A stretch of 64,000 bases of DNA. Origin: Phaeovulum sp. (GTDB lineage Bacteria; Pseudomonadota; Alphaproteobacteria; Rhodobacterales; Rhodobacteraceae). Shown here piece after piece: positions 42,636 to 58,090 of this stretch. The notes beneath the pieces are model-generated. The model did no database searches, was not told the DNA's origin, and worked only from the letters and a program-made list of their open reading frames with translations. The stretch covers positions 1 to 64,000 of the forward strand of contig NZ_JAUXPI010000044.1 in NCBI RefSeq assembly GCF_030684035.1, read 5' to 3'. Position 1 is the first letter of the stretch. The number at the start of each line of letters is the position of its first letter. Made by a program: the position numbers and the translations under genes.

Positions 42636-43490
42636 CTAGAGCCAGACCGAAGGTGTGACCACCTCGCCCAGCCCCGCCGCCCGCAGCTTTGCGGCGGCGG
42701 CTTCGACCCAGGCGCGCGGCATCTTTGGCCAGTCGCGCGCGGGCCCCTGTACGCCGTGGTGCTGAAATGCGTTGAGCTTTATGCGCACCGGCCCAAGCCC
42801 GCGCGCAAAAGCGATCAGCGCATCGATTTCGGCGTCACTGTCGGTAAAGCCCGGCACCATCAGAAAGCGCAACTCGTAAAGCTTGCCCGCCTTCTGGGCA
42901 ATGCGCGCGCTTTCAAGGCTCTTGTCGTTCCTGCGCCCGGTCAGCGCGGCATGGGTGCCAGGCGCAAAGGCCTTGATGTCGAGCATCACCCCATCGGTCA
43001 CCGGCATGAGCCGCTGCCAGCCCTGCGGCCCGAGGTGGCCGTTTGAATCGATGAAACAGCTGAGCGCCGCAAGTGCCGGATCGGCCTTGATCGCGGCAAA
43101 AAGCGCCTCGACGAATTTTGCCTGCACCGTCGCCTCGCCGCCAGAAATGGTTATGCCGTTCAGAAACGGCAGGTTCTGGCGCAGCATCGCCAGCACGTCT
43201 TCGACTGTCAGGCTTTCAGTCATCGGGCTTGCGCTGATCGGGCAGGCGCGCAGGCAGAGGTCGCATTCGTCGCAGCGCGCGGCATCGAAGGCGATGGTGC
43301 CATTGGTCAGCGAAAGTGCGCCTTGCGGGCAGGCGGGAACACAGTCGCCGCAGTTGTTGCAAATGCCGATCGTATGCGGGTTGTGGCAGCCGGGGCAGGC
43401 AAAATTGCAGCCCTGCAGGAACAGCACCAGCCGGTTGCCGGGGCCATCGACCGCCGACCAGCGCAGAACCTTACTGACGTTGGCCCGCAT
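42636..43490 (-). CDS. yjjW: YjjW-family glycyl-radical enzyme activase
   Basis: 284 residues. The radical-SAM cluster motif CNFACPGC (C-x3-C-x2-C) is near residue 28. An inserted ferredoxin pair follows: CNNCGDCVPACP and CDECDLCLRACP, each for a 4Fe-4S cluster. NGITISGGEATVQ is the SAM-binding GGE region. The enzyme generates the glycyl radical on YjjI using SAM and low-potential electrons. It overlaps yjjI by 20 bases and is the last gene of the seven-gene operon. Confidence 0.92.
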   Translation of the reverse strand: MRANVSKVLRWSAVDGPGNRLVLFLQGCNFACPGCHNPHTIGICNNCGDCVPACPQGALSLTNGTIAFDAARCDECDLCLRACPISASPMTESLTVEDVLAMLRQNLPFLNGITISGGEATVQAKFVEALFAAIKADPALAALSCFIDSNGHLGPQGWQRLMPVTDGVMLDIKAFAPGTHAALTGRRNDKSLESARIAQKAGKLYELRFLMVPGFTDSDAEIDALIAFARGLGPVRIKLNAFQHHGVQGPARDWPKMPRAWVEAAAAKLRAAGLGEVVTPSVWL

Positions 43491-45006
43491 CGAGTTCCTG
43501 CCCGACTACCCGTGGTTTGCGCGCCAGAATTCCGGTGAGCTTGGCCGCCTCGGCCCCAAGCGCGGTGGTGTTGGTGCGCGAACCCTCGCCCGCATCCTGG
43601 CGGGCGACATCTGAAAGCCGGATCATGTAGCCGGTCACCCGCACCAGATCGTTCGAGGCAACATTGGCGGTAAATTCGCGAAAGCCGCTGGCGAAAGCTC
43701 CCTTGCAAAGCTGAAGCACTGCGGCCGGGTTTGCCTTCACGGTCTCGTCCAGCGTCAGGATCTCGCTCACGCCGCTCGCGTAATAGCGGTGCTGCGGGGC
43801 AAGCGCCTGCACATGGGCGACCGGGTCGGGCTCGGTACCATAGGCAATGCGGATGCCGGGGGTGGTTTCGCTGTCGGTCGAAAGCCCGGCTTGCGCGTGC
43901 AGCATTGCGCGCCCCCGCCAGACATTCCGCATCGGGCGCGCCTCGACCATCGCGGCCAGAGCTTCGGTGATGCGCAGGCCAAGCGCGTTGGCGTTTTGGT
44001 CGTGGCCATAGCGGCCCGTCAGGCCTGCCTTGCCTTGCAGAATGTCCACCGCCTCGGCCATGCCGAAAACGCCGAACATTGCGGTGAAACGGTCGCGGTC
44101 GATCCAGCCTTCGGTGACGAGGAAACTTTCAAAGAAGCCGGATTCGTCATAGAGATAATCGATGCGCGCCTGCATCAGGTTGAAACAGGTCTCGACATAG
44201 CGGGGCAGAAGCTCACCAAGGAAATGCTCGATCCCCTTGGCCCGCAGCGCCACCTCGCGCAGGTTCACCCGTGCCAGGGTCGAGGCACCGCCGCGCAAGG
44301 GCAGGGCGTTGTAGCAGCTGACAATGCCGTAACCCGCTTCGTCAAAGGTTGCGGCGTGGATCGGGTGGTTGGCGATATGCGGCTTGGAACATTCGGTGAT
44401 GTTGGTCACCGCCTGCGCCAGCAGCGCCTCGGTGCTGACTGCGGGGTCATAAAACAGCGTCAGGTTCGGGGCGATCTGCTTGAGCTCGGCATCCACCCGC
44501 AGAATGGCGCGGGCCACCGCGTTATCGGTCGGGCCGATATTGGCATGCAGAAAGGCGTCCGGCAGAACCCGGTCGATATAGCGCCAGAAGCGCTTGATCT
44601 TGCTGTAAAGTTCGTCGTCGGAGACACCGGCACAGAACGGCAGCAGCAGCGCGTCAAGTTGCCCGATATAGACCGGCATTCCGGTGATCGAGGGCACATG
44701 ATGATAGGCAATCATCAGCGTGTTCAGCGCATCATCAAGCGTTTCGGGGGGCGGCAGTTCAAGCCAGCACGAACCCTTTTCCAGCACCACCGAGAAATCG
44801 GCCAGCACATAGCGCGGCCGGTAGGGTGCCGCACCCTCGTACATGTCGCAGATGATGCGCGCATCAAGCGCGTCGCGGGTTTCAGGATCAAGCGCGGGGT
44901 AGGCCAGCAGGTTTTCCGCCTGCACCGCCAGCGCATGCGCCTTTTGCGCAGGCGTCAGCGCCGGATCGTTGACGATGGAGCGAAGCCTTTGAAACCCGTC
45001 GAGCAT
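43471..45006 (-). CDS. yjjI: YjjI-family glycyl-radical enzyme
   Basis: 511 residues. The C-terminal glycyl-radical motif is RVTGYMIRLSD, the radical Gly being G459. The likely thiyl cysteine is C231 in YGIVSCYNALPLRGGA. The protein is much shorter than pyruvate formate-lyase (about 760) and is the YjjI type, whose reaction is unknown. It requires anaerobiosis and its partner YjjW. I chose the ATG at 45006; the frame stays open to 45087 but that part overlaps the previous gene. The upstream neighbours are ferredoxin-dependent enzymes. Confidence 0.9.
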   Translation of the reverse strand: MLDGFQRLRSIVNDPALTPAQKAHALAVQAENLLAYPALDPETRDALDARIICDMYEGAAPYRPRYVLADFSVVLEKGSCWLELPPPETLDDALNTLMIAYHHVPSITGMPVYIGQLDALLLPFCAGVSDDELYSKIKRFWRYIDRVLPDAFLHANIGPTDNAVARAILRVDAELKQIAPNLTLFYDPAVSTEALLAQAVTNITECSKPHIANHPIHAATFDEAGYGIVSCYNALPLRGGASTLARVNLREVALRAKGIEHFLGELLPRYVETCFNLMQARIDYLYDESGFFESFLVTEGWIDRDRFTAMFGVFGMAEAVDILQGKAGLTGRYGHDQNANALGLRITEALAAMVEARPMRNVWRGRAMLHAQAGLSTDSETTPGIRIAYGTEPDPVAHVQALAPQHRYYASGVSEILTLDETVKANPAAVLQLCKGAFASGFREFTANVASNDLVRVTGYMIRLSDVARQDAGEGSRTNTTALGAEAAKLTGILARKPRVVGQELDAGQRQ

Positions 45007-45030
45007 TGCGGCCCCCCATGCGGCAAAGCG

Positions 45031-45060
45031 CCGCGTCGGCGCAAGATAGCGCCGACGCGG
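45031..45060 (-). terminator. 12-bp hairpin between the PFOR-like gene and yjjI
   Basis: CCGCGTCGGCGC and GCGCCGACGCGG form a perfect 12-bp stem with a six-base loop in the 73-base gap. No T-run follows on the minus strand, so it is more likely a partial terminator, processing site or stabiliser that sets yjjIW expression than a true operon end. Confidence 0.5.
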
Positions 45061-45079
45061 ACAAAACGAAAGCACTGCC

Positions 45080-47338
45080 TCAGGCAAAGGCCTTGGCGCG
45101 CTCGATCAGGGCAGGCAGGTCGGGCTCGTCCGGGTTGCGCGGCTTGCCGGGGTGAATGATCGACACCTGACAGCCTTCAGCCGCCTCGACCAGTTGGCGG
45201 AAGCTGCCGCCGTCAGGGTTGACGATATAGGCCTGCATGTTGTCGTTATAGGCGAAAAGCTGCGCGTTGATCTGCGTGCATTCGTTGCAGGTGGTGCAGC
45301 GCGCGGTTTCGATCCAGGGCAGGTCCGAAGGCGGCGCGGCGGCGGCACTGGCAGCGGGTGCCGCCGTGGCCGCTGCGGATGGCGCTGCGGCTCTGGCGGG
45401 ACTGGCCGCCGGGACGGAGGCAACAACGGCGACGGTCGGTGCCGGGCCGACGCTTGCGGGGGCGGCAGCGGCGGCTGCCGCAACAGCCTTTGCCACCGCC
45501 TCGGCCGTCCGCGCCTCGAACTTCACCCGCTCGGCGGCAAGCAACCGCTCGGCGTGCGAATTGCGAATGCCGGCAAGCTCTTGCAGGCGCCGCCAGGCAT
45601 CAATCGCGCGGGTTGCCGCTTCGGCCACCTTTTCTGCCACGCCGCAGCGCGTCAACTCGTTGTGCGCGTTGATGCCAAGCACATAGGGAACCCGCGCCAC
45701 CGCCATGGCCGGTTCGAGTGTCAGCCAATCGGCGGCAGGCAGCATCTTTTCGGACCAGTCCTTTTGCGCAATCGGCTGGCTGTAGCGCGCGTAGCGTGCA
45801 TCGCACATGGCAAAGTCGATGAAGCTGAAGGCGGTATCGATGCTCAGCCGCTGCCCGGTGCCATCTTCAAAATCGAGCCGATAGCCGGGCCAATCAGCCT
45901 CCAGCGCCGGGTTGGTGGCAAGGTCGAACCGCCGCGCCCAGTCGGGGCCAGCCGAGGGGTCGTAGCAGAAGGTCGGAAACGCGCGCGACTCGGTTGCCGC
46001 CGCCGCCAGAAGGTAGGGGGCGACCCCCTCCACACTTGGCGTGGCACCCGAATAGACGCAGAAAAGCGCCGCGCCATCGTAGCGCATGCCGCGCACCAGG
46101 GCATCGCGCATGCGGTAAAGATGCGCCGAGGAAACCTGCAATGCGAAGGCGTTGTTGGTGCCCATTGCCATTGCCGCAAGCCGCGCCGAGCCGCCGCCAA
46201 AAGCGTGGCGAGATGGTTCGGGCGAGGTGGTCCCCAGAATGTCGTCGGTCTGCACCAGCACCTTGATCGGCAGGCCCGATGCCAGTGCCTCGAAGGCGCG
46301 CACGGTTTCGGCGATGTCGTCCTCGCCGTCGCGCAGCAGCACCAGCGCGGCGGGAAGCAAGGCTTCCTGTTCCGCGGTAAGGTCGCTTTCGTCGTAAGCG
46401 TTGAGCACCGGGTCGTGCTGGGCAGGGCGATACTTGCCCTCGGCTTCCAGCTCTGCCGTGGTCAGCGCCTTCACGAATTCCACCATTTCGGGCAGCCGCT
46501 CGCGGTAGGCATCAAGCGCTCTGGCGCAGCTTTCGAATATGTAGCTGTGCGGCTTGGGCTGGCCGGGCAGCAGTTCGGAACCGCGCACCGGGCCATAGAA
46601 GCGCTGGCCGCCAAGCACCGAAAGCGCCCAGCCAATGCGATGCAAGCGGTCTTCGGGCAGCCTGTCCACCGGCCGCGCGCGGGCGAGAATGCCGGACAGG
46701 GCACCAAAATCGATGCCGACGCTATCGGCTTGGCCGACGGCAGATTTCAGCGCCTCGGCACCATGCGCCTCGTCCGATTTCATGAAGTCGGCCTTGAGGA
46801 TGTCGGAAAGCCGCAAGATCAGGCCATCGACCTTCTTGCGAAAGGCCGCGGCCTTGTCGCGGTGAACAGCGTGCCAGGCATGGCTCAGCACCGCCTTGGG
46901 TGTGGCCGCATCGCAGCCGATCACCATGCCATCGGCATGCAGCCGCTCGCGCGCGCGGTCAAGGTTGGTGTCCATCGGGCCGAAGGGCTGTTCGCCCTGC
47001 GCCTGCAAAAGCGCCGCCGCCGAGGTCCGCCACAGGTCTGAAAGGCGGCCGCTTTCACCTGCGGCGACACGGCGACGTATCGCGGCCTCGAGCCGCAGCA
47101 CCTGTTGGCGTTGCGCCTCGCCTGCCGGGCCCGGCTGGGCGACAGCACCAAGCGCGTCGTCGATGAGCCGCATCAGCGGGCGGAACTGGGTCCCGCCCTT
47201 GTCATCCTCGACCAGCACAAGCGGGTAGTCGTAGCGCAAATCTTCAAGTGTGCCATAGCGCGCAAAAAGCGCGGGGCGGTTGACTGCGCTGGCAGGGCCA
47301 TGGCTGGGCGTGGTTCCGGGCATTTTCTGGTGCTGCAT
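45080..47338 (-). CDS. PFOR-related protein with tethered C-terminal ferredoxin domain
   Basis: 752 residues from an ATG 4 bases after korB. The N-terminal 350 residues are unfamiliar. Residues about 400-560 resemble the C-terminal TPP-side domain of pyruvate:ferredoxin oxidoreductase (SARLAAMAMGTNNAFALQVS, RYDGAALFCVYSG, FDLATNPALEADWP), but the TPP motif GDGW is absent. An Ala/Pro-rich linker of about 60 residues (630-690) leads to a ferredoxin-like domain with CTTCNEC and a fourth Cys in EGCQVSI. Presumably it partners KorAB as an electron outlet. Confidence 0.75.
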   Translation of the reverse strand: MQHQKMPGTTPSHGPASAVNRPALFARYGTLEDLRYDYPLVLVEDDKGGTQFRPLMRLIDDALGAVAQPGPAGEAQRQQVLRLEAAIRRRVAAGESGRLSDLWRTSAAALLQAQGEQPFGPMDTNLDRARERLHADGMVIGCDAATPKAVLSHAWHAVHRDKAAAFRKKVDGLILRLSDILKADFMKSDEAHGAEALKSAVGQADSVGIDFGALSGILARARPVDRLPEDRLHRIGWALSVLGGQRFYGPVRGSELLPGQPKPHSYIFESCARALDAYRERLPEMVEFVKALTTAELEAEGKYRPAQHDPVLNAYDESDLTAEQEALLPAALVLLRDGEDDIAETVRAFEALASGLPIKVLVQTDDILGTTSPEPSRHAFGGGSARLAAMAMGTNNAFALQVSSAHLYRMRDALVRGMRYDGAALFCVYSGATPSVEGVAPYLLAAAATESRAFPTFCYDPSAGPDWARRFDLATNPALEADWPGYRLDFEDGTGQRLSIDTAFSFIDFAMCDARYARYSQPIAQKDWSEKMLPAADWLTLEPAMAVARVPYVLGINAHNELTRCGVAEKVAEAATRAIDAWRRLQELAGIRNSHAERLLAAERVKFEARTAEAVAKAVAAAAAAAPASVGPAPTVAVVASVPAASPARAAAPSAAATAAPAASAAAAPPSDLPWIETARCTTCNECTQINAQLFAYNDNMQAYIVNPDGGSFRQLVEAAEGCQVSIIHPGKPRNPDEPDLPALIERAKAFA

Positions 47339-47342
47339 GTCT

Positions 47343-48332
47343 TTACTCCGCTGCCACCGGTTCCGCGTCATCGGGCCAGATCGTGACCTTGTCGAATTCC
47401 TCCCGCAGCACGGTCTCGACCAGCGCGGGGGTCGACGGCCGTTCGCCGGCGCGCAGATCGTCGTAGCAGGGCACCGAGGGATCGTTGTAGAGAATGCCCA
47501 CCGGAATTTCGTCGGCAATCGCCGCTATCGCCAGGGCGCGGCCCATATCAAGCGGGTCGTGGGTTTCCTGGTTCTTGTAGACGCGCGAAACCTCGGGGCT
47601 GAGGCGCAGCCCGTTGCCATGGGTGAGAATGCGCATTTTCGAGGGGTCGCGCACATAGTCGTCAAAGCGGTGCTGCATGAATTCCGGGCAGCGCTGCAAG
47701 ATGCGCACGAAGGACAAGCCACGGTGATGGAACGCCTTTTTCAGGATGTCGTAGAGCAGATCGGGGATCCAGTCCACCGCCTGCGCCACGAACGACACGT
47801 TGGCAACCCCGAGTGTCACGGTCAGAGGATTGAGCGGCAAGAGCACTGAGCCAAAGGGCGTGGTGTTGCTTTTCTGGCCGATCGGCGAGGTGGGCGAGGC
47901 CTGCTTCTTGGTCAGCCCGTAAATCTGGTTGTCGTGCAAAAGCACGGTCATGTTCATGTTGTAGCGGATCGCGTGGATCCAGTGCGCGGCACCGATGGAG
48001 GTGCAGTCGCCGTCGCCGGTGGTGACGAACACGTCGAGGTCGGGGCGGCGGATTTTCACGCCTTCGGCAACCGGCAAGGCACGGCCGTGGATGCCGTGAA
48101 AGCCATAGGCGTTCATGTAGTGCGGCAGTCGGCTGGAACAGCCGATGCCGGATACGCAGACGGTCTTTTCAGGGGCCAGTTGCTCATCGCGGCAAAGTTT
48201 CTGCATCGCGGTCAAAATCGCGGTATCGCCGCAACCGACGCACCAGCGCGGCGCGATGTCGCTTTGGTAGTCCGATAGCGCATAGTCGGTTTCGACCATG
48301 CGCATCATGCAGGCGGAAAGATTCTCGGACAT
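47343..48332 (-). CDS. 2-oxoacid:ferredoxin oxidoreductase beta subunit (KorB type)
   Basis: 329 residues. C31 and C34 in RWCVGCGD and a further Cys in SGIGCSSRLPHYM bind a 4Fe-4S cluster. The TPP/Mg site is TGDGDCTSIGAAHW and DNQIYGLTKKQASPTS. With KorA it oxidatively decarboxylates a 2-oxoacid to an acyl-CoA and reduces ferredoxin. The start at 48332 is 4 bases beyond the korA stop. Substrate (2-oxoglutarate, pyruvate or other) is not readable from sequence. Confidence 0.92.
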   Translation of the reverse strand: MSENLSACMMRMVETDYALSDYQSDIAPRWCVGCGDTAILTAMQKLCRDEQLAPEKTVCVSGIGCSSRLPHYMNAYGFHGIHGRALPVAEGVKIRRPDLDVFVTTGDGDCTSIGAAHWIHAIRYNMNMTVLLHDNQIYGLTKKQASPTSPIGQKSNTTPFGSVLLPLNPLTVTLGVANVSFVAQAVDWIPDLLYDILKKAFHHRGLSFVRILQRCPEFMQHRFDDYVRDPSKMRILTHGNGLRLSPEVSRVYKNQETHDPLDMGRALAIAAIADEIPVGILYNDPSVPCYDDLRAGERPSTPALVETVLREEFDKVTIWPDDAEPVAAE

Positions 48333-48336
48333 CGGG

Positions 48337-50238
48337 CTATTCCTTCCCAAGCTTGGAGCGCACGGCGGCAACGATTGCGGTGGGTTTCAAGGGTTGCCCC
48401 CGGGCGTTGCCCCAGCAATCGATGTCAACCAGGTAACGCGAGCGCAACAGCAGCGCGAGGCTTGAATAGCGGCGGTTTTCGGGGGTGATGAGCGGGTCCG
48501 AAAGCGGGTCGTTCCAGTTGTTTTCGATACTCATCACATGGGTGAAGCGCTTCATCACCTCGCCAATGCCAGAAGCCATCGGTTGCAGGAACTTCAGGTG
48601 CAGCGATGAGGCCGCGATGCCCTGGGCGCGCAGAATTCCCACCGCCTCCTCGATCGCGCCAAGCGTGCTGCCCCAGCCGATCAACAGCATTTCGCCGCTG
48701 TCGCCGCCACAAAGCGGCGGCAGCCGCAGCGTGGTTTGCAGCGCCGCAAGCTTGCGCGAGCGGTTGAGCAAGCCTTCTTCGTTGATCTCGGGGTCGTAGG
48801 CCACATGGCTGTCGCGGTCATGTGCAAGGCCGGTCAGGCAGTGCATGCCGTTCGGCTGGCCGGGGATGAAGCGGGTGGCAATGCCGGTGCGCGGATCCCA
48901 GTCATAGGGCTTGGCATCTTCGGGCACCGGGCTCTGGTTGACCGGCGGGGCCAGCCAGTCTTCGCGGAAGCTCGGTCGCGGGAAGGGTTGCTGGGCGGTT
49001 GCAAGGCTCGCATCCGACAGCAGCATGACCACCATGTTGAAGGTTTCGGCGATCTTGCGCGCAGTGATGACCGAATAAAAGCAGTCCTCGATGGTCGAGG
49101 GTGCCATAACCACCTTGGGGGCATCGCCGTGACCGCCGAAAATCGCCGCCATCAGATCGCCCTGTTCCACCTTGGTCGGCAGCCCGGTCGAGGGGCCGCC
49201 GCGCTGCACGTCAATCACCACCAGCGGGATCTCGGCCATCACCGCAAGGCCAAGCGCCTCTTGCTTGAGCGAGAGGCCGGGGCCCGAGGTGATGGTGACC
49301 GCGCATTTGCCCGCGTAGCTGGCACCAATGGCGAAGGCGCAGGCGGCAATCTCGTCTTCGGCCTGGTGCACGACGCAGCCGACCTTTTCGAAGATGTTGC
49401 TCAGGTAATGCGAGGTCGAGGTGGCGGGCGTGATCGGATACATCGCGCACACTTCCATACCCGAGGCGACCACGCCGAGCGCGAGCGCGGTGTTGCCGTT
49501 CATCACCACCTGCGCTTCTGTCGCGCGCTTGGCCGGAACGGTGAAGCGCAGATCGAGGTTGGTTTCTGCCCAGCTGCGGCCGGCATCAAGCAACTCGATG
49601 TTGGCATCGATGATCTTCTGGTCTTTCTTGCCGAAAATCCGCGCCACCTGCGCCCGCGCCAGCCCTTCATCAAGGCTGTAGATGCCGCAGAGCATGCCGA
49701 GCACGAACATGTTCTTGCCCTTGCGCGGGTCGGGCACGAGCTTGAGGCATTCCACCTCCATCGGCACCTCATAGACGCGAAAGCCGCGGGTGCGGATCTC
49801 CTCGACAACCTGCGCGTAAGAGGCGGCGATGCCCGCGTTGCGGTCATTGCGCCATTTGCTTTCCATCAGGATGATGCCGCCGGGCTTGATCTCGTCGGCG
49901 TGCAGACGGCTGAGCAGCACCTGTTCGTTGAAGGCCACCACGAGGTCGGCCTCGTTGCCGCCGTTTGTCACCGGGCCAGAGGCAAAGCGCACCCGGTTGC
50001 CCGAAGCCCCGGCCACCGAGCGGTGCGGGGGCTGGATTTCGGCGGGAATGATTTCCACCGTCCAGATGCCGTTGCCGGATCGCGCCGCGATGGCACCGAA
50101 GCTTTGCCCGCAGCGTTGCGCGCCTTCGCCCGAGTCGGAAACGATTTCGACGATGTGCTCGCTCAGCACCACCGCTGGCTTTGGCCTCGGTTTGCTCGGT
50201 TGCCGTTCGATCACCGCCTGTTCGGCTTTGTTGTCCAT
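48337..50238 (-). CDS. 2-oxoacid:ferredoxin oxidoreductase fused gamma-alpha subunit (KorA type)
   Basis: 633 residues. Residues about 30-200 are the gamma domain (SDSGEGAQRCGQSFGAIAARSG, NEADLVVAFNEQVLL); 225-600 are the alpha domain with NGNTALALGVVASGMEVCAMYPITPATSTSHYL, VHQAEDEIAACAFAIGASYAGKCAVTITSGPGLSLKQEALG. The fused gamma-alpha form is usual for KorA of aerobes and facultative bacteria. It is 15 bases after nfnB. Confidence 0.93.
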   Translation of the reverse strand: MDNKAEQAVIERQPSKPRPKPAVVLSEHIVEIVSDSGEGAQRCGQSFGAIAARSGNGIWTVEIIPAEIQPPHRSVAGASGNRVRFASGPVTNGGNEADLVVAFNEQVLLSRLHADEIKPGGIILMESKWRNDRNAGIAASYAQVVEEIRTRGFRVYEVPMEVECLKLVPDPRKGKNMFVLGMLCGIYSLDEGLARAQVARIFGKKDQKIIDANIELLDAGRSWAETNLDLRFTVPAKRATEAQVVMNGNTALALGVVASGMEVCAMYPITPATSTSHYLSNIFEKVGCVVHQAEDEIAACAFAIGASYAGKCAVTITSGPGLSLKQEALGLAVMAEIPLVVIDVQRGGPSTGLPTKVEQGDLMAAIFGGHGDAPKVVMAPSTIEDCFYSVITARKIAETFNMVVMLLSDASLATAQQPFPRPSFREDWLAPPVNQSPVPEDAKPYDWDPRTGIATRFIPGQPNGMHCLTGLAHDRDSHVAYDPEINEEGLLNRSRKLAALQTTLRLPPLCGGDSGEMLLIGWGSTLGAIEEAVGILRAQGIAASSLHLKFLQPMASGIGEVMKRFTHVMSIENNWNDPLSDPLITPENRRYSSLALLLRSRYLVDIDCWGNARGQPLKPTAIVAAVRSKLGKE

Positions 50239-50253
50239 AATCTGCCTGCTTTC

Positions 50254-51762
50254 CTAGATCAGCCGCACATGGGTAAAGTTGCGTTCCGCCAGATCGATGC
50301 CGAAAATGCTGCCATCGAGCCCGGCATGCTCGGGCGCGTAAACCCTGCCCGAGTCGCGGATGCCGAGGTAGCGCTTGATGCTTGCCGCAGCCTTGCGCCC
50401 GGCACCCATGGCCAGAATGACCGTGGCGGCACCGGTGACGATGTCGCCGCCCGCATAAACCCCCGCAAGCGAGGTGGCGAGGCTATCGTCGCACTGGATA
50501 TAGCCGCGCTTGTCGAGCTTGAGCTTCGAGGTCTGCCCGAGGATCGGATTGGGCGAGGTGCCGATTGCGTAAACCACGGTATCGGCCTCGAAATCGAACT
50601 CCGACCCCGGCACCACCACCGGGCTGCGCCGACCGCTCGCGTCAGGGTCGCCCAGTTCCATCCGCACGCAGCGCAGCGTGCGCACGTTGCCATTCGCGTC
50701 GCCGAGTATCTCGACCGGGTTGGTCAGCCAGTGGAATTCAATGCCTTCTTCTTCGGCGTGGTGCAGTTCTTCCTTGCGTGCGGGGCATTCGGTTTCGGTG
50801 CGCCGGTAGATGCAATGCACCTCTTCCGCCCCAAGCCGCAGGCTTACCCGCATCGCATCCATCGCGGTATTGCCGGCACCGATGACCGCGACGCGTTTGC
50901 CCAGACCCAGCGGCGTGTCGTAGGCGGGGAACTGACCGGCGCGCATCAGGTTGCAGCGGGTCAGAAGCTCGTTGGCCGAAAGCACGCCATTCAGCCCCTC
51001 GCCGGGAAGGTCCATGAAGCGCGGCGAGCCTGCGCCAGTGCCGATGAAGACCGCGTCATACCCCATCTCGCCAAGCATCTGTTCAATGGTGAACAGCCGC
51101 CCGACCAGCGTGTTGCACTTGATTTCCACCCCCAGCGCCTCGATTGCTCCGATCTCCGCATCGACAACCGAATTCGGCAGCCGGAATTCGGGGATGCCGT
51201 AGCGCAGAACGCCGCCCGGTTCGTGCAGCGCCTCGAAGATCGTGACCTTGCACCCGGCCTTGGCAAGGTCCGCCGCGCAGGCCATGCCTGCCGGACCCGA
51301 CCCGACGATGCCGACGCGAAAAGGCTGCCGTTCGATATGGCTGACCTTGCGCCAGCCCTCGGCAATGGCGCGGTCGCCCAGCCAGCGTTCCAGCCGCCCG
51401 ATGGCGACAGGTTCCAGCGTGCCGCCCGCACCCACCGGGCAGACGCCTTCGCACTGGTCTTCCTGCGGGCAGACGCGGCCGCAGACGGCGGGCAAAAGCG
51501 TCGAATCCGTCAGCAGATCATAGGCTCCCTGGTAATCGTGCTTGATCATCCGGGTAATGAAGCCCGGAATGTCGATGTTGACCGGGCAGCCCTCGATGCA
51601 GGCGGGCTGCGGGCAGACCAGGCAGCGCTCGCATTCCAGAAGCGCGTTCGGCACGTCGAAGCCGAGTGCCACCTCGTCAAAGTTCTTGGCGCGGATTTCG
51701 GGTTCCTGCACCGGCATCAGCGCGCGCTGCTGCGGAATCGAGCGGATCGTCTTGCGGGCCAT
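50254..51762 (-). CDS. NfnB/SudA-type flavin oxidoreductase, large subunit
   Basis: 502 residues. The N-terminal cysteine-rich region (CERCLVCPQPACIEGCP and CGRVCPQEDQCEGVCP) binds two 4Fe-4S clusters. It is followed by an FAD Rossmann motif VGIVGSGPAGMACAADLAKAG and an NADPH motif VAVIGAGNTAMDAMRVSLRLG. NfnAB couples ferredoxin oxidation and NADH oxidation to NADP reduction by flavin bifurcation; the same architecture occurs in sulfide dehydrogenase SudAB and in GltD. Partner NfnA is encoded immediately upstream, with a 1-base overlap. Confidence 0.9.
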   Translation of the reverse strand: MARKTIRSIPQQRALMPVQEPEIRAKNFDEVALGFDVPNALLECERCLVCPQPACIEGCPVNIDIPGFITRMIKHDYQGAYDLLTDSTLLPAVCGRVCPQEDQCEGVCPVGAGGTLEPVAIGRLERWLGDRAIAEGWRKVSHIERQPFRVGIVGSGPAGMACAADLAKAGCKVTIFEALHEPGGVLRYGIPEFRLPNSVVDAEIGAIEALGVEIKCNTLVGRLFTIEQMLGEMGYDAVFIGTGAGSPRFMDLPGEGLNGVLSANELLTRCNLMRAGQFPAYDTPLGLGKRVAVIGAGNTAMDAMRVSLRLGAEEVHCIYRRTETECPARKEELHHAEEEGIEFHWLTNPVEILGDANGNVRTLRCVRMELGDPDASGRRSPVVVPGSEFDFEADTVVYAIGTSPNPILGQTSKLKLDKRGYIQCDDSLATSLAGVYAGGDIVTGAATVILAMGAGRKAAASIKRYLGIRDSGRVYAPEHAGLDGSIFGIDLAERNFTHVRLI

Positions 51763-52718
51763 CAGTGCGCCCCCCCGGCTTCATGCGGCAATTGCGTGCG
51801 GCGGCAGTTTTCGTCGTAACGTTCAAGAGCGTCGCGTTCTTGCGCCTTGTAGCGCTTGAGGCGCAGCATCAGGTCATCGAAATCGACCTTGTGGCCATCA
51901 AAGTCCGGCCCATCGACGCAGGCAAAGCGGATCCGGTCATCAACCTTCACCCGGCAGCCGCCGCACATGCCGGTGCCATCGACCATGATCGGGTTGAGGC
52001 TGACCATGGTCTTGACCTTGTAGGGGCGGGTGGTCTCGACGCAGCCTTTCATCATGATCGGCGGGCCGATCACCACCACCTCGTCGACATCGACATGGGC
52101 CTGCAGCGCCTGGGTGATGCCGAGCGTCACGAGGCCCTTGATGCCGACCGAGCCGTCATCGGTGCAGATGATGAACTCGTCGCAGACAGCGCGGAACTTG
52201 TCATCCCAGAACACCAGATCCTTGTTGCGAAAACCCACCACGCCGATGACGTAGGCCCCGGCTTCCTTGAAGGCACGGGCCTGCGGGTAGATCGGCGCGA
52301 CGCCAAGACCGCCGCCGACGCAGATCACCTTTTTCGCACCCGATACATGGCTCGGCACCCCCATCGGGCCAACGATGCCGTAAAGCGTGCCGCCTTCGTG
52401 CAGCGTTGCCTGCATCTGCCGGGTGGATTTCCCCACCGCTTGCACCACCAGCGTCACCGTGCCGCGGTCCCGGTCAAAATCGGCGATGGTCAGCGGCACC
52501 CGCTCGCCATGCTCGTCGAGAATGATGATCACGAACTGCCCGGGCTTCGCGGCGCGCGCCATTGCCGGGTGTTCGACCTCCAGCAGAAATGTGACATCGG
52601 AAAAGTCGGTGCGTGTCAGGATCGGGAAACCCCTGGAACGAATGTCTTCGTAAGGATTTGTCTTGGAGGGGCGGGTATGTATCGCCCCGGCTGCACCTGC
52701 GTCATTGTAGTCGGTCAC
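51762..52718 (-). CDS. NfnA/SudB-type flavin oxidoreductase, small subunit
   Basis: 318 residues from a GTG with AGGGGGAAGG upstream. An FAD-binding ferredoxin-reductase fold (GQFVIIILDEHGERVPLTIAD) and NAD motif (CVGGGLGVAPIYPQA) precede a 2Fe-2S site in DGTGMCGGCRVKV with a final Cys in RFACVDGP. It pairs with NfnB. As first gene of the operon it is the one immediately downstream of the leftward FNR box. Confidence 0.9.
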   Translation of the reverse strand: MTDYNDAGAAGAIHTRPSKTNPYEDIRSRGFPILTRTDFSDVTFLLEVEHPAMARAAKPGQFVIIILDEHGERVPLTIADFDRDRGTVTLVVQAVGKSTRQMQATLHEGGTLYGIVGPMGVPSHVSGAKKVICVGGGLGVAPIYPQARAFKEAGAYVIGVVGFRNKDLVFWDDKFRAVCDEFIICTDDGSVGIKGLVTLGITQALQAHVDVDEVVVIGPPIMMKGCVETTRPYKVKTMVSLNPIMVDGTGMCGGCRVKVDDRIRFACVDGPDFDGHKVDFDDLMLRLKRYKAQERDALERYDENCRRTQLPHEAGGAH

Positions 52719-52774: not shown

Positions 52775-52788
52775 TTGATCTGCATCAA
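52775..52788 (-). promoter_or_regulatory. FNR box for the nfn-kor-yjj operon
   Basis: TTGATCTGCATCAA is a perfect FNR-type dyad (TTGAT-N4-ATCAA). Its centre lies 63 bases before the nfnA start, close enough for a class-II promoter with a start site near 52740. Confidence 0.8.
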
Positions 52789-52873: not shown

Positions 52874-52887
52874 TTGATGCACATCAA
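52874..52887 (+). promoter_or_regulatory. FNR box for the diheme cytochrome gene
   Basis: TTGATGCACATCAA is a perfect FNR-type dyad, extended to TTTGAT...ATCAAA (52873-52888). Its centre is 87 bases before the start codon. A class-II position (-41.5) would put transcription near 52922, with GATAGC at 52909-52914 as a weak -10. An AAATATGTAT element abuts it on the left. Confidence 0.8.
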
Positions 52888-52967
52888 AGCGCGTCGGCAC
52901 GAAAGGCGCGATAGCGCTGCAAGCTGGGCCGCGCGGCCCGGTGCGCGCGTCGTTGCAGGAGGATCCG

Positions 52968-53561
52968 ATGGTGACAATTCTTGAACTGGCGCGGAGCGGA
53001 CGCGGGGTTGCACTGGCAGTTGCGGCGCTGGCATCCGTGCTGGCGGCTCCTGCCAGGGCGCAGGTTGCCGATGGCTCTGATCTGGTGGCAAAGGGCAAGG
53101 CGATCTTCGAGGCAGGGATAGGCGGTATTCCCTGCGCCGCTTGCCATGGCGAAGACCAGACGGGCCTTGTCGGTCCGAGCATCGAGGGTGGCAGCGTGCA
53201 GATGGTTCACACCGCGTTGGAGAATGTCGAAGCGATGCAGTCGCTTTCGCTCAACCTGGCACAGATGGTCGCGGTTTCGAGCTATCTGCAATCGCTGACC
53301 CCGGCACCGGCGGCGGCACCGATGAGCAAACTGGTGCTCGAAGGAAAGGCGCTTTACGAATCGTCCGAGGCACATATTGGCTGCGTCGAATGCCACGGCC
53401 ACGACCAGACCGTTCTTGTTGCACCTGACCTGACCGGGGTAACGGTTTTGCAGGTGCATGACGTGATGGATCAGATCGAACAGATGGAGGGCGTGCTTTT
53501 GACCTTGCCACAAATGGTTGCGGTGTCGGCCTACCTCAACTCGATCGACGCCCCACAGTAA
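52968..53561 (+). CDS. Periplasmic diheme cytochrome c (first copy)
   Basis: 197 residues with AGGAGGA before the ATG and a signal peptide cut near AQVAD (residue 32). Two CxxCH motifs occur at residues 56 (CAACH) and 139 (CVECH). Each is preceded by a GKAIFE/GKALYE helix and followed by HG-x-DQT-x-LV, so the protein is an internal duplication of a small cytochrome domain. It is the first gene right of the FNR boxes and probably shuttles electrons to a periplasmic reductase. Confidence 0.88.
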   Translation: MVTILELARSGRGVALAVAALASVLAAPARAQVADGSDLVAKGKAIFEAGIGGIPCAACHGEDQTGLVGPSIEGGSVQMVHTALENVEAMQSLSLNLAQMVAVSSYLQSLTPAPAAAPMSKLVLEGKALYESSEAHIGCVECHGHDQTVLVAPDLTGVTVLQVHDVMDQIEQMEGVLLTLPQMVAVSAYLNSIDAPQ

Positions 53562-53640
53562 CTATCCGCTGCCAAGGTACCGAAGGTTCCGAAGTCGCAG
53601 GCAGCCGGGCGATTACATTTGCTCTTTTGAAAATACATAT

Positions 53641-53654
53641 TTGATATGGGTCAT
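53641..53654 (+). promoter_or_regulatory. Degenerate FNR-like site before the second diheme gene
   Basis: TTGATATGGGTCAT matches the left FNR half exactly and the right half at TCA only. It is preceded by ATACATATTT, the reverse complement of AAATATGTAT found beside the perfect box upstream. It lies 200 bases before the gene, so direct control is uncertain. The rest of 53562-53853 holds nothing recognisable. Confidence 0.4.
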
Positions 53655-53853
53655 GGCGCAGGGGCGAATCTTGCCGCACTGTTCCTAAGTCGGGTGGCAC
53701 GGATCAGTATCGCTGCCCGGTACCTTGGTGTGGGCTTCATCGCCCCTCGGGTCGTGTGCGCCTTGGGCACATGCGGCAAGCGCGGCGTCGAGCCCTTTTC
53801 CCGAATTGCGGCGGCAGTGCCTGGGTGCGTCGCCCCTGAACGAGGAGGTCGTC

Positions 53854-54477
53854 ATGAATTTGAACCATCTGCGCAGCGCGAGGGTTTCGGTCGCAGCCAT
53901 TGCCCTGGGCTTGGCCGGGGCGGCAACAGGCTGGGCACAGACGGTGCCAGATGCGGACCTGGCCGCCAAGGGCAAGGCAATCTACGAAACGGGTGTGGAA
54001 GGTGCCGCCTGCGTCGACTGCCACGGCCTTGACCCGGTTCTGGTCGTCGGGGGGCTTGTTCCTGGCCAGGATTTCAACACGGTGCACTCGGCGCTGGCTG
54101 AACAGCTTGCGATGCAGCCGCTGACGCTGACCGAAGAACAGATCGCCGCCGCTTCGGCCTATCTGCTCAGCATTGGCACCGCGACGGCCACGCTCGTTGC
54201 ACCGGGTGCCGCGGGTACCCCTGCCTCGACCTCGCCGTCCTTCATCCAGTTGGCGGCCATGGGCAAGGCCATCTTTGAATCCGGGCCCGACGGCCTTGGC
54301 TGCGTTGAGTGCCATGGCCATGATGCAACCGTGCTGGTGGCACCGAACCTTGGCGGCAAGAACCCTGGCCAAGTGCATCTGGCGCTCGCCACCGTTGCCG
54401 GAATGGACGGCATCAAGCTTAGCGCTGACGACCTCAAGGCCGTCATCGCCTACCTTGAGCAACAGGCCGTCAAATAG
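53854..54477 (+). CDS. Periplasmic diheme cytochrome c (second copy)
   Basis: 207 residues, GAGGAGG before the ATG, signal peptide cut after GWA (about residue 28). CxxCH occurs at residues 53 (CVDCH) and 150 (CVECH). The second half (CVECHGHDATVLVAPNLGG) is almost the same as in the preceding gene, so the pair are paralogs. An Ala/Thr/Pro linker (108-130) joins the two domains. It lies between the first copy and a convergent membrane-protein gene. Confidence 0.88.
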   Translation: MNLNHLRSARVSVAAIALGLAGAATGWAQTVPDADLAAKGKAIYETGVEGAACVDCHGLDPVLVVGGLVPGQDFNTVHSALAEQLAMQPLTLTEEQIAAASAYLLSIGTATATLVAPGAAGTPASTSPSFIQLAAMGKAIFESGPDGLGCVECHGHDATVLVAPNLGGKNPGQVHLALATVAGMDGIKLSADDLKAVIAYLEQQAVK

Positions 54478-55758: not shown

Positions 55759-57429
55759 ATGGCACATCGCGCATGGGCACTTGCGGCGTTCGCGCTCGCG
55801 CCGATCTTGTGGGGAGGAGCAGTGGCTGCTCAGGCCGAGGTTGCGGCGGCGGGGGTGCCGGCGGCGGCACTTGTCGGCAGCAGCACCGCCGACCATTCCA
55901 AGTTCGAGGTGCTGAAAAAGCCCTTCGCCTCGGGGCCCGAGGTCACGCAAGCGTGCCTTAGCTGCCACACCGAGGCCTCCGATCAGGTCATGCACACGGT
56001 GCACTGGCAGTGGGATTACACCCAACCCGAGACCGGGCAGTTGCTCGGCAAATCGGAAGTTCTGAATTCCTTCTGTGGTAACGTGGCGGGCAACGAGGCG
56101 CGTTGCACCTCGTGCCATATCGGCTATGGCTGGACCGACGTGCGCGAAGAAGCCTCGTCCGATCCGACACAGGTTGATTGCCTGGCTTGCCATGATACGT
56201 CAGGTCAGTATGCCAAACAGGACAATCAAGCTGGCAAACCGCCGCTTGATCCGGTCGCGCCGGGGGCGAAAACCATCACGGGCGCTGTGGCGTGGGCGGT
56301 GAACCTCTCGGAAGCCGCGCAGTCCGTCGGCGCGCCGGGGCGCGATAATTGTGGCAACTGCCATTTCTACGGCGGCGGCGGCGACAACGTTAAACACGGC
56401 GATCTGAGTTCGGTGCTTTACGCGCCCTCACGCGATGTCGATGTGCACATGTCGAGCGAAGGTGCCGACATGACCTGCGTCGATTGCCATGTGACCGAGG
56501 GTCACGCCATCGACGGCAGCCGTTTTGCGACCAACGTGACCGACCCGCATGCGGCAGACCGCCTGCCCGGAGCGGCCTCGGATGTCGCGGCCTGCGATTC
56601 GTGCCATACCAATGCGCCGCATCCGGCGACCGTGGTCGGGCTGAAGCTCAATGACCACACCGACCGGGTTGCCTGCGAAAGCTGCCATATTCCCAGTTTC
56701 GCGCGTGGCGGCATTGCCACCAAGACGCTGTGGGACTGGTCTACCGCCGGACGTCTGACCGAAGACGGCAAGGTTATTTCCGAGCACGGCTATACGCAGG
56801 GCAACGGCACCGAGTTGCATAGCTACATCTCGACCAAGGGTAATTTCGAATGGGCCGAGAACGTGGTGCCCCATTATGCGTGGTTTGATGGCAACGTGAC
56901 CTTCACCCTGCGCGATACCGTGATCGACCCGACCTCGCGCGTCGAGATCAACCAGTTGCATGGTGACGCCGCCGATCAGGACTCGCGTATCTTCCCGTTC
57001 AAGCGGATGGAAGGGCGACAGGCATTTGATACCGTCTCGAACCGGCTTGCCTTCAACCATGCCTATGGTCCCGGCACGGACACCGCCTTCTGGGTCAACT
57101 TCGACTGGGCAAAATCGTTGCAGGCGGGGATGGACTATGTCGGCGAGGGTTTTTCGGGCAACTTCGGCTTTGTTGACACCTACATGTATTGGCCGATTGC
57201 GCACATGGTCGCCCCGGCGCGCGACGCGGTCGATTGTGCCGAGTGCCATTCGCCCGGCGGCCGCATGGTCAATATCGCCGGCATCTATGTGCCCGGCAGC
57301 GGGTTGGGAATGGGCGGCAAGCTTGGTTTGCTGGTTTTCATGATGGGCGCGTTGGGCGTGCTCGGGCACGCGCTGCTGCGCGTTTTCGGTGCGGCGCGGC
57401 GCAAGCGCGGAGGGGCTGAACATGGCTGA
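55759..57429 (+). CDS. Octaheme c-type cytochrome, tetrathionate-reductase family, membrane-anchored
   Basis: 556 residues. Eight CxxCH motifs start at about residues 66, 116, 141, 198, 240, 279, 306 and 493. The sequence around the first three (VTQACLSCHTEASDQVM, SFCGNVAGNEARCTSCHIGYGW, DCLACHDTSGQY) matches the octahaem tetrathionate reductase family. Members of that family reduce tetrathionate, nitrite and hydroxylamine in vitro. K212 in NVKHGDL may be the active-site ligand. A signal peptide and one C-terminal helix (about 518-540) anchor it in the membrane. It overlaps the cytochrome b gene by 8 bases. Confidence 0.9.
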   Translation: MAHRAWALAAFALAPILWGGAVAAQAEVAAAGVPAAALVGSSTADHSKFEVLKKPFASGPEVTQACLSCHTEASDQVMHTVHWQWDYTQPETGQLLGKSEVLNSFCGNVAGNEARCTSCHIGYGWTDVREEASSDPTQVDCLACHDTSGQYAKQDNQAGKPPLDPVAPGAKTITGAVAWAVNLSEAAQSVGAPGRDNCGNCHFYGGGGDNVKHGDLSSVLYAPSRDVDVHMSSEGADMTCVDCHVTEGHAIDGSRFATNVTDPHAADRLPGAASDVAACDSCHTNAPHPATVVGLKLNDHTDRVACESCHIPSFARGGIATKTLWDWSTAGRLTEDGKVISEHGYTQGNGTELHSYISTKGNFEWAENVVPHYAWFDGNVTFTLRDTVIDPTSRVEINQLHGDAADQDSRIFPFKRMEGRQAFDTVSNRLAFNHAYGPGTDTAFWVNFDWAKSLQAGMDYVGEGFSGNFGFVDTYMYWPIAHMVAPARDAVDCAECHSPGGRMVNIAGIYVPGSGLGMGGKLGLLVFMMGALGVLGHALLRVFGAARRKRGGAEHG

Positions 57430-58090
57430 GCGTCTGGTCAAGGTATATTCGCGTTTCAACCGCATCTGGCACTGGTTGCAGGTGCTCTCAATCCTGATGC
57501 TGCTGTTCACCGGCACCCGGATCATGAGCCTGCACCCGATCCTGCCGTTCCAGGCTGCGGTGACGCTGCACACGCTCACGGCGCTGTTCTTGCTGGTGCT
57601 CTGGGCGTTTGCCACCTTCTGGCTTTTTACCACGGAAAACTGGAAGCAGTTCATTCCGCGCTACGAAGGGCTGCCCGCGGTGATCCGCTTTTATGCCTGG
57701 GGGGTGTTCAAGGGCGAGCCGCACCCCTACCACAAGGCCTATCACCGCCGCCACAACCCGTTGCAGGCGCTATCCTATCTGGCGCTGAAGGTGGTGCTGT
57801 TCCCGGCCATCTGGATCTCGGGGCTGGCCTATCTGGGCTACACTTTCTGGGCACCTGCGGATCACGCGAGCTTCTGGCTGACCATCGTTGCGAATATCCA
57901 CATCCTTGCGGCATTTTCGGTGGCGACCTTCGTGGTGCTGCATGTCTATCTCTTGACCATCGGCCACGGTTTTCGCGAGCATGTGCGCCCGATGATCACC
58001 GGTTTCGAGAAAGTCGAGGTTTCGGCAGAGGCGGAGGCCTATTTTGCCGCCGAAAAGCCCGAGCGGCTGAAGGAAGAAGCGCAGAGCTGA
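57422..58090 (+). CDS. Membrane cytochrome b (b561 type), partner of the octaheme protein
   Basis: 222 residues. Four helices with histidines suited to two b haems: RFNRIWHWLQVLSILMLLFTG, VTLHTLTALFLLVLWAF, an interior segment around residues 115-145, and IHILAAFSVATFVVLHVYLLTIG. The family transfers electrons from the quinol pool to periplasmic c-type partners. Coupled translation with the octaheme gene (8-base overlap) argues that they form one quinol-oxidising complex. Confidence 0.9.
   Translation: MAERLVKVYSRFNRIWHWLQVLSILMLLFTGTRIMSLHPILPFQAAVTLHTLTALFLLVLWAFATFWLFTTENWKQFIPRYEGLPAVIRFYAWGVFKGEPHPYHKAYHRRHNPLQALSYLALKVVLFPAIWISGLAYLGYTFWAPADHASFWLTIVANIHILAAFSVATFVVLHVYLLTIGHGFREHVRPMITGFEKVEVSAEAEAYFAAEKPERLKEEAQS

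Follow-up and report, generated by a model that had tools for sequence, protein, structure and literature searches.

Two probable anaerobic modules in one genus: an Nfn-Kor-Orf5 unit and the glycyl radical pair yjjI-yjjW in a seven-gene run of Phaeovulum sp.

Why should yjjI, which encodes a glycyl radical enzyme, lie behind genes for a 2-oxoacid:ferredoxin oxidoreductase (Kor) and for Nfn? The question is raised by a run of seven genes on the minus strand, from 52718 to 42636, of a 64,000-nucleotide stretch of DNA from Phaeovulum sp. (contig NZ_JAUXPI010000044.1, positions 1 to 64,000, assembly GCF_030684035.1), hereafter the window. The genome (G000 in our numbering), a 2.96-Mb assembly, is 99.95% complete. 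A preliminary description of this DNA had proposed a self-contained anaerobic pathway in which YjjI makes or removes a 2-oxoacid that Kor uses. We consider another reading probable, namely that two separate anaerobic modules, nfnA-nfnB-korA-korB-orf5 (module 1) and yjjI-yjjW (module 2), are transcribed in this genus as a single unit under FNR control. The seven genes are as follows.

nfnA, 51762-52718, minus strand: 318 amino acids, GTG start; NADH/FAD/[2Fe-2S] subunit of Nfn.
nfnB, 50254-51762, minus strand: 502 amino acids; GltA/GltD-like subunit with FAD and two [4Fe-4S]; 1-base overlap with nfnA.
korA, 48337-50238, minus strand: 633 amino acids; fused gamma-alpha subunit of a 2-oxoacid:ferredoxin oxidoreductase; gap of 15 bases after nfnB.
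korB, 47343-48332, minus strand: 329 amino acids; thiamine pyrophosphate (TPP) and [4Fe-4S] subunit; gap of 4 bases after korA.
orf5, 45080-47338, minus strand: 752 amino acids; gap of 4 bases after korB.
yjjI, 43471-45006, minus strand: 511 amino acids; glycyl radical enzyme with Gly459 and likely thiyl Cys231; gap of 73 bases after orf5.
yjjW, 42636-43490, minus strand: 284 amino acids; radical S-adenosylmethionine (radical-SAM) activase with an added ferredoxin-type dicluster; 20-base overlap with yjjI.

The gene content, coordinates, spacings and glycyl residue given in the preliminary description agree with the open reading frame coordinates and with the RVTGY motif of YjjI, which makes the glycine residue 459. 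The identities proposed there for YjjI, YjjW, Kor and Nfn are likewise upheld by the family scores. YjjI reaches 669.2 bits with PF11230 (cut-off 23) and 708.8 with TIGR04040 (cut-off 498.3), YjjW 335 with TIGR04041 (250.2), KorA 512.5 with TIGR03710 (482.75), NfnA 385.7 with NF004862 (220) and NfnB 567.6 with TIGR01316 (471.75). KorB scores 91 bits with PF02775 (cut-off 21.9) and lies slightly below the cut-off of TIGR02177 (247.7 against 261.9). The sole Pfam domain of Orf5 is a C-terminal ferredoxin (PF13370, 24.7 bits, cut-off 24.5), and the NCBIfam scan gave no match for this protein.

The neighbourhood of yjjI in other genomes bears directly on the choice between these readings. A scan of named genomes returned 98 YjjI relatives, the best 80 of which were taken as loci, with at least 1.5 kb of DNA upstream of yjjI in 69 and at least 5 kb in 61. 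Whereas yjjW stands directly behind yjjI in all 80, a kor, nfn or orf5 gene, counted at more than 45% identity, adjoins yjjI in three (HGW-Alphaproteobacteria-4, UBA6213 and KA09), all belonging to the genus of the window; weak nfnB matches in L036 and L047 (30–31%) were left out of this count. The preliminary description had stated that the pathway link would fail if yjjI and kor/nfn were not neighbours in related genomes; outside the genus they are not. Among 61 near relatives, six scored above the cut-off for YjjI (the window's own genome, all three congeners, G010 and G030), and so did three of the 385 genomes of the class, one of them the window's own. The congeners G001 and G002 carry all seven genes in the same order; the G003 contig stops inside orf5 and holds the end of that gene together with yjjI and yjjW. 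A tree had been suggested to see whether operon-linked YjjIs form a clade, and they do. Three loci (L030, L031 and L085) were excluded for their length; of the 77 that remained, 54 were combined with the window into a set of 55 sequences, in which the three kor-linked ones form a single clade (100/100) inside 22 rows with other contexts, that is, one shallow clade within the YjjI family.

Elsewhere yjjI keeps other company. In six loci (L024, L025, L026, L027, L029 and L033) it is preceded by an SCP2-domain gene and two U32-family genes, which we take to be UbiT-, UbiU- and UbiV-like; domains were scanned in L024, and the other five loci were grouped with it by similarity. A possible ATG of yjjI lies 11 bases inside the last of these genes in 6 of 6 loci. 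This link is tighter than that to kor, and the records are titled with several genera. One of them, L029, is named as an Acidovorax metagenome-assembled genome, and it closely resembles the Rhodobacterales loci L025 and L026 in its YjjI and in its ubi-type neighbourhood, which suggests a mis-binned contig or a recent transfer. Other neighbours of yjjIW include deoC in E. coli, genes for AraC-type regulators and, in Rhodobacter sp. SW2, an NnrS gene that follows yjjW.

Module 1, in turn, is found without an adjoining yjjI. Searches with Orf5 matched three of the 100 genomes examined in the family (the window's own, G003 and G010), one of 149 in the order (the own genome alone) and seven of 240 in the class. 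Besides the own genome, these seven comprise G184, G089 and G152, where the match is full-length, G232, where it is partial, and two genomes with weak matches (G079, E 4.1e-4, and G159, E 8.0e-4) that were not counted; the plasmid collection held two distant matches of 30–32% identity. The block nfnA-nfnB-korA-korB-orf5 is complete, with its order kept and no yjjI adjoining, in G010, G184, G089 and G152, and the contig of G232 holds nfnB-korA-korB-orf5, ending inside nfnB and inside orf5. The association of Kor with Nfn that had been claimed is thus supported: four genomes from other genera preserve the gene order, and a fifth does so as far as its contig reaches. No YjjI match is listed for G184, G089, G152 or G232 in the search of 385 class genomes, taken to include all four. 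G010, an uncultured Tropicimonas, carries both modules, separated by at least 40 kb: its yjjIW pair lies on another contig than module 1, 40.3 and 44.4 kb from the contig ends. The proposal of a self-contained pathway is not supported by this arrangement. As the modules live apart elsewhere, they look independent rather than parts of one pathway. In G089, module 1 is followed (L111, 12368-16849) by a second set resembling a 2-oxoacid oxidoreductase (198, 417 and 333 amino acids) and by an NfnB-like protein of 544 amino acids.

The AlphaFold model of YjjI (pLDDT 89, pTM 0.89) gave, with Foldseek, chains of class III ribonucleotide reductase (NrdD) at ranks 1 to 23. With VIA-align the best chain was 8p2s_B (Z 31.4, rmsd 3.4, 469 residues aligned); among the 50 rows listed, NrdD chains have Z values of 25.8–31.4 and other glycyl radical enzymes (PflD, pyruvate formate-lyase (PFL), CutC and others) of 24.7–27.4, the ranges overlapping at the low end. 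Profile comparisons, made with small sets, gave E 1.7e-9 over the full length against seven NrdDs and E 2.2e-5 against four PFL-type enzymes, two of them incomplete, while the PFL and NrdD profiles matched each other with E 0.26. Searches of PDB sequences with YjjI, as a single sequence and as a profile, found nothing. The YjjI model also weakly matches a G194 gene whose score with the NRDD model is 619 bits. NRDD-type structure had already been predicted for YjjI in 2011 and a role in nitrogen metabolism suggested, according to the available part of that paper (PMC3228777).

The residues of the active site set YjjI apart from the types with which it was compared. Gly459 and Cys231 are invariant in 55 of 55 sequences, so both the RVxGY loop and a mid-chain thiyl cysteine are present, and Cys231 aligns with the cysteine of 'MGCRSF' in E. 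coli NrdD and with the 'ACC' of PFL. Ser230-Cys231, equally invariant in all 55, stands opposite the Cys-Cys of pflB, residues 418-419 at the PFL thiyl site; a PFL-type 2-oxoacid enzyme was rejected on this ground. Glycyl radical dehydratases and lyases (eliminases) carry the thiyl-site motif Cys-x-Glu, whereas YjjI has the invariant Cys231-Tyr232-Asn233. Nor is YjjI a true NrdD: PF13597 (NRDD) stays below its cut-off of 26.2 (20.9 in G003 and 20.0 in G002, with none listed for G000), and the C-terminus of YjjI holds no CxxC, the zinc site being absent, while E. coli NrdD has both pairs. Tyr66 is aligned with Cys175 of E. coli NrdD, presumably its second active-site cysteine. The predicted fold of YjjI is nearest to that of class III ribonucleotide reductase, without the signatures of NrdD, PFL or the eliminases.

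Eight YjjI-bearing genomes (G000-G003, G010, G030, G230 and G323; G030 is 86% complete) have no PF13597 match over the cut-off, so a reductase of another class probably supplies their deoxyribonucleotides in the absence of oxygen. No PF01228 match was found in G000-G003 and G010.

Since YjjI has no PFL-type Cys-Cys pair, nothing points to a 2-oxoacid as its substrate or product, and the claim that YjjI makes or removes one for Kor, linked as the two are in 3 of 80 loci, is not borne out. The single pathway, in which YjjI would make or consume a 2-oxoacid or its precursor, Kor convert it to acyl-CoA and Nfn balance the ferredoxin, does agree with the tight gene order conserved within the genus. 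Against it stand the confinement of the link to one genus, the unlinked modules of Tropicimonas, the other partners of yjjI, such as the ubiTUV-like genes of six loci, and the missing cysteine pair; we consider it very improbable.

If not a common pathway, common control may have brought the modules together. Upstream of nfnA, and between orf5 and yjjI, the following features were found.

52775-52788: FNR-type box without mismatch, TTGATNNNNATCAA, 56 bp upstream of the start of nfnA.
52874-52887: another such box, also without mismatch, 155 bp upstream of nfnA.
45007-45079, minus strand: orf5-yjjI intergenic region; it holds a hairpin of 12 bp, CCGCGTCGGCGC / GCGCCGACGCGG, that no T-run follows.

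With the pattern TTGAT-N4-ATCAA, the window contains three sites within one mismatch, whereas shuffled versions have a mean of 0.72 and reach three or more in 2 of 100 cases; the 1.39 Mb of comparison DNA from the named loci holds 17 perfect boxes. The proximal box lies 54–56 bp before nfnA in all three testable members of the genus (the window, G001 and G002), and G002 keeps it though no homologue of the divergent cytochromes matched there. The second box has two mismatches in G001 and, in G002, no counterpart within three mismatches; it may serve the divergent cytochrome c gene or genes at 52941. Outside the genus, sites with one mismatch lie before nfnA at -105 in G010 and at -103 in G089. 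FNR-like regulators with clustered N-terminal cysteines are encoded in G000-G003, G010 and G089. Because the five-gene unit has an FNR box, it is likely to be used anaerobically.

For yjjIW, such control is documented elsewhere. E. coli yjjI is tabled as 'directly activated by FNR' (PMC3688515), yjjI and yjjW are both marked as FNR-activated (PMC2634741), and in Yersinia intermedia grown without oxygen yjjI is 4.3-fold and yjjW 2.1-fold higher (PMC3792023), all according to the available parts of these sources. As the E. coli pair is FNR-activated beside deoC, anaerobic use of yjjIW is seen without an adjoining Kor. Taking into account the FNR boxes of the window and this FNR or anaerobic activation elsewhere, shared anaerobic control would suffice to explain how the two modules could come to be joined. 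Module 2, a glycyl radical enzyme and its activase, would then carry out a reaction of its own, placed behind module 1 and sharing its anaerobic promoter.

The hairpin before yjjI does not mark a boundary of the classical terminator type: it is followed by no T-run and is not among the 13 terminator-type sites found (9.7 in shuffles), and this candidate was rejected. Its stem is present in 4 of 4 members of the genus, with one end pair broken in G002. Two pairs are changed on both sides, but as 124 of 500 shuffles equal this, covariation is not above the control.

Near the operon, the window contains two cytochrome c-type genes divergent from nfnA (52941-54477) and, at 55759-58090, a gene for an octaheme cytochrome c, which TIGR04315 (576.6 bits, cut-off 375) assigns to the tetrathionate reductase family; a b-type cytochrome gene follows it.

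What, then, would module 1 do? KorA and KorB show the family assignment, the TPP motif and the [4Fe-4S] motif of a 2-oxoglutarate:ferredoxin oxidoreductase. The best solved chain for KorA is 6n2n_A (E 1.6e-81), and Cys31, 34, 65 and 215 of KorB are invariant among seven aligned KorBs. NfnA and NfnB have the two domain sets of Nfn, encoded by adjacent genes; the closest solved chains are the NfnI subunit 5jca_S for NfnA (E 5.4e-92) and 4ylf_B and NfnI 5jca_L for NfnB. The 2-oxoglutarate dehydrogenase E1 subunit is present in 9 of 9 carriers of the module, so Kor is read as an alternative to that enzyme.

Orf5 is the part that no family model names beyond its ferredoxin. Residues from about 289 to 600 correspond to the TPP domain of pyruvate:ferredoxin oxidoreductase (PFOR) without the TPP motif; an Ala/Pro linker follows, and the C-terminus is a single-cluster ferredoxin whose cysteines 681, 684, 687 and 723 are invariant in seven Orf5s. 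Residues 289-699 are collinear (hhalign E 1.6e-26) with residues 1164-1592 of a 1636-amino-acid PFOR-like protein of G010, the part of that long oxidoreductase that carries its TPP_enzyme_C match. Its GDGAAYDIG reads RDGEDDIAE in Orf5, and GDG occurs in none of the seven Orf5s: five read RDG and two neither. In the PDB sequence search ferredoxins alone were credible, and an AlphaFold model built from three sequences had a mean pLDDT of 34.8 and was not used. By homology, Orf5 is a detached PFOR thiamine domain without its TPP motif, joined to a [4Fe-4S] ferredoxin. We infer that it stands between Kor and Nfn as a docking subunit or as a carrier. A shielding role can also be considered, by analogy with the PFOR DaPFOR, whose extra C-terminal domain covers a cluster and gives oxygen stability according to the accessible text (PMC5020499).

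Put together, KorAB would oxidise a 2-oxoacid, most likely 2-oxoglutarate to succinyl-CoA and CO2, replacing under anaerobic conditions the oxygen-era 2-oxoglutarate dehydrogenase. Electrons would pass from the [4Fe-4S] cluster of KorB to the ferredoxin domain of the TPP-dead, PFOR-derived Orf5, and from there to NfnAB, where they would be combined with NADH to reduce NADP+. The opposite direction is possible though doubtful: Nfn would reduce ferredoxin from NADPH and Kor carboxylate succinyl-CoA to 2-oxoglutarate, a step of the reductive tricarboxylic acid cycle serving biosynthesis or electron disposal. The closest solved relative, 6n2n, speaks for it, being a reductive-cycle enzyme of Magnetococcus, whereas the E1 subunit, which 9 of 9 genomes encode, suggests use of the oxidative step in this group. 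A flux model of Rhodospirillum rubrum, as given in the available part of its source, also runs 2-oxoglutarate synthase reductively (PMC12151479).

Several points weigh against the reading of two independent modules under FNR control, or against 2-oxoglutarate as the substrate. The genus keeps the seven-gene order although the identity of YjjI and YjjW is down to 76–90%, and an order kept despite such drift may be taken as some sign of selection for co-expression. The best FNR site before nfnA has two mismatches in G184 and four in G152. Directly before yjjI, in 79 loci (L076 was left out for too little upstream DNA), there is one perfect box and three sites within one mismatch, against 0 and 0 in an inside-gene control; within two mismatches the counts are 15 and 15. 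With 3 of 79 loci within one mismatch, an FNR box as a general feature before yjjI was rejected. As for the substrate pocket, Asp468 of the Sulfolobus enzyme is replaced by Leu in KorA, and the same is described for the KorAB of Hydrogenobacter, an enzyme with high specificity for 2-oxoglutarate (PMC5020499). In KorB the position of Lys49 is taken by Arg, as in the solved chains 6n2n and 8ys5; the same source reports that the Sulfolobus enzyme, when carrying K49R, preferred pyruvate and that the Hydrogenobacter beta subunit is without the Lys49 region. The pocket evidence is accordingly mixed: Leu favours 2-oxoglutarate and Arg is ambiguous.

Radical-SAM activases need a low-potential one-electron donor, and this suggests a different link, electronic instead of metabolic, in which module 1 supplies YjjW with reductant, either through the ferredoxin of Orf5 or as NADPH by way of a flavodoxin/ferredoxin reductase. 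Module 1 should make reduced carriers, and the genus keeps it together with yjjIW; however, Tropicimonas keeps the modules apart, 77 of the 80 named yjjIW loci have no adjoining gene of module 1, and E. coli yjjIW lies beside deoC without that module. We judge such a supply improbable. That reduced carriers may feed YjjW had also been raised in the preliminary description. A bolder version is also unlikely: NfnAB, KorAB and Orf5 would form one hard-wired complex, confurcating 2-oxoglutarate and NADH to NADP+ without free ferredoxin and with the dead PFOR domain as a bridge, which in this genus would also charge the activase of an NrdD-fold radical enzyme with none of the known glycyl radical chemistries.

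The two-module reading thus keeps its place: the operon is real and the reason for it is probably ordinary, two anaerobic modules having been joined in one genus. A pathway joining YjjI to Kor has a neighbourhood at the level of one genus as its basis and is no guide to the substrate of YjjI. What is worth keeping is twofold. A conserved five-gene electron module of Alphaproteobacteria has been brought out, including a hitherto unnamed TPP-dead PFOR-ferredoxin protein, Orf5, which may explain how facultative anaerobes connect a ferredoxin-type oxidation of 2-oxoglutarate with NADPH. In addition, YjjI has been placed near NrdD, without the signatures of NrdD, PFL or eliminases, and this narrows the candidate chemistry of the E. 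coli radical enzyme.

How do these parts compare with known systems? In the open-licence literature searched (several result lists were partial, and subscription papers lay mostly outside it), no reaction of YjjI and no description of an Nfn-Kor-Orf5 block was found. The block is a variant of known parts. Azoarcus evansii 2-oxoglutarate:NADP+ oxidoreductase couples Kor to NADP+ via a flavoprotein; it has three subunits and is not known to include an Orf5-type protein. KorAB resembles 6n2n most closely, then 5b46/5b48 (Sulfolobus) and 8ys5, in the gamma-alpha fusion with a separate beta subunit, YPITP, the TPP motif and the [4Fe-4S] cysteines; unlike the solved enzymes, it is accompanied by Orf5 and Nfn, and 2-oxoglutarate is its presumed substrate. 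NfnAB has the two subunits, the domains, the [2Fe-2S] motif and the N-terminal Fe-S domain of known Nfn, but lies here within a five-gene unit with KorAB and Orf5. The legend of Figure 2 in PMC6405883 names PFOR, and not Kor, among nfn neighbours, so the pairing of Nfn with a 2-oxoacid:ferredoxin oxidoreductase is already known. It is seen again in G010 (L103, contig C19, 5112-12778), where the gene for the 1636-amino-acid oxidoreductase overlaps by 4 bases that for a fused Nfn of 919 amino acids, whose NfnA part is C-terminal as in pattern C of the same paper. The C-terminal third of that oxidoreductase is homologous to Orf5, but it is one chain and keeps GDG, whereas Orf5 is detached and has lost it. 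YjjI resembles NrdD in its fold and full-length profile match and differs from it in having no C-terminal Cys4 zinc site, Tyr66 in place of the second cysteine and, by its length, no ATP-cone. It resembles E. coli YjjI, which the family model matched as a control and whose gene is reported to be FNR-activated; there yjjI and yjjW lie beside deoCABD, whereas here they stand behind kor.

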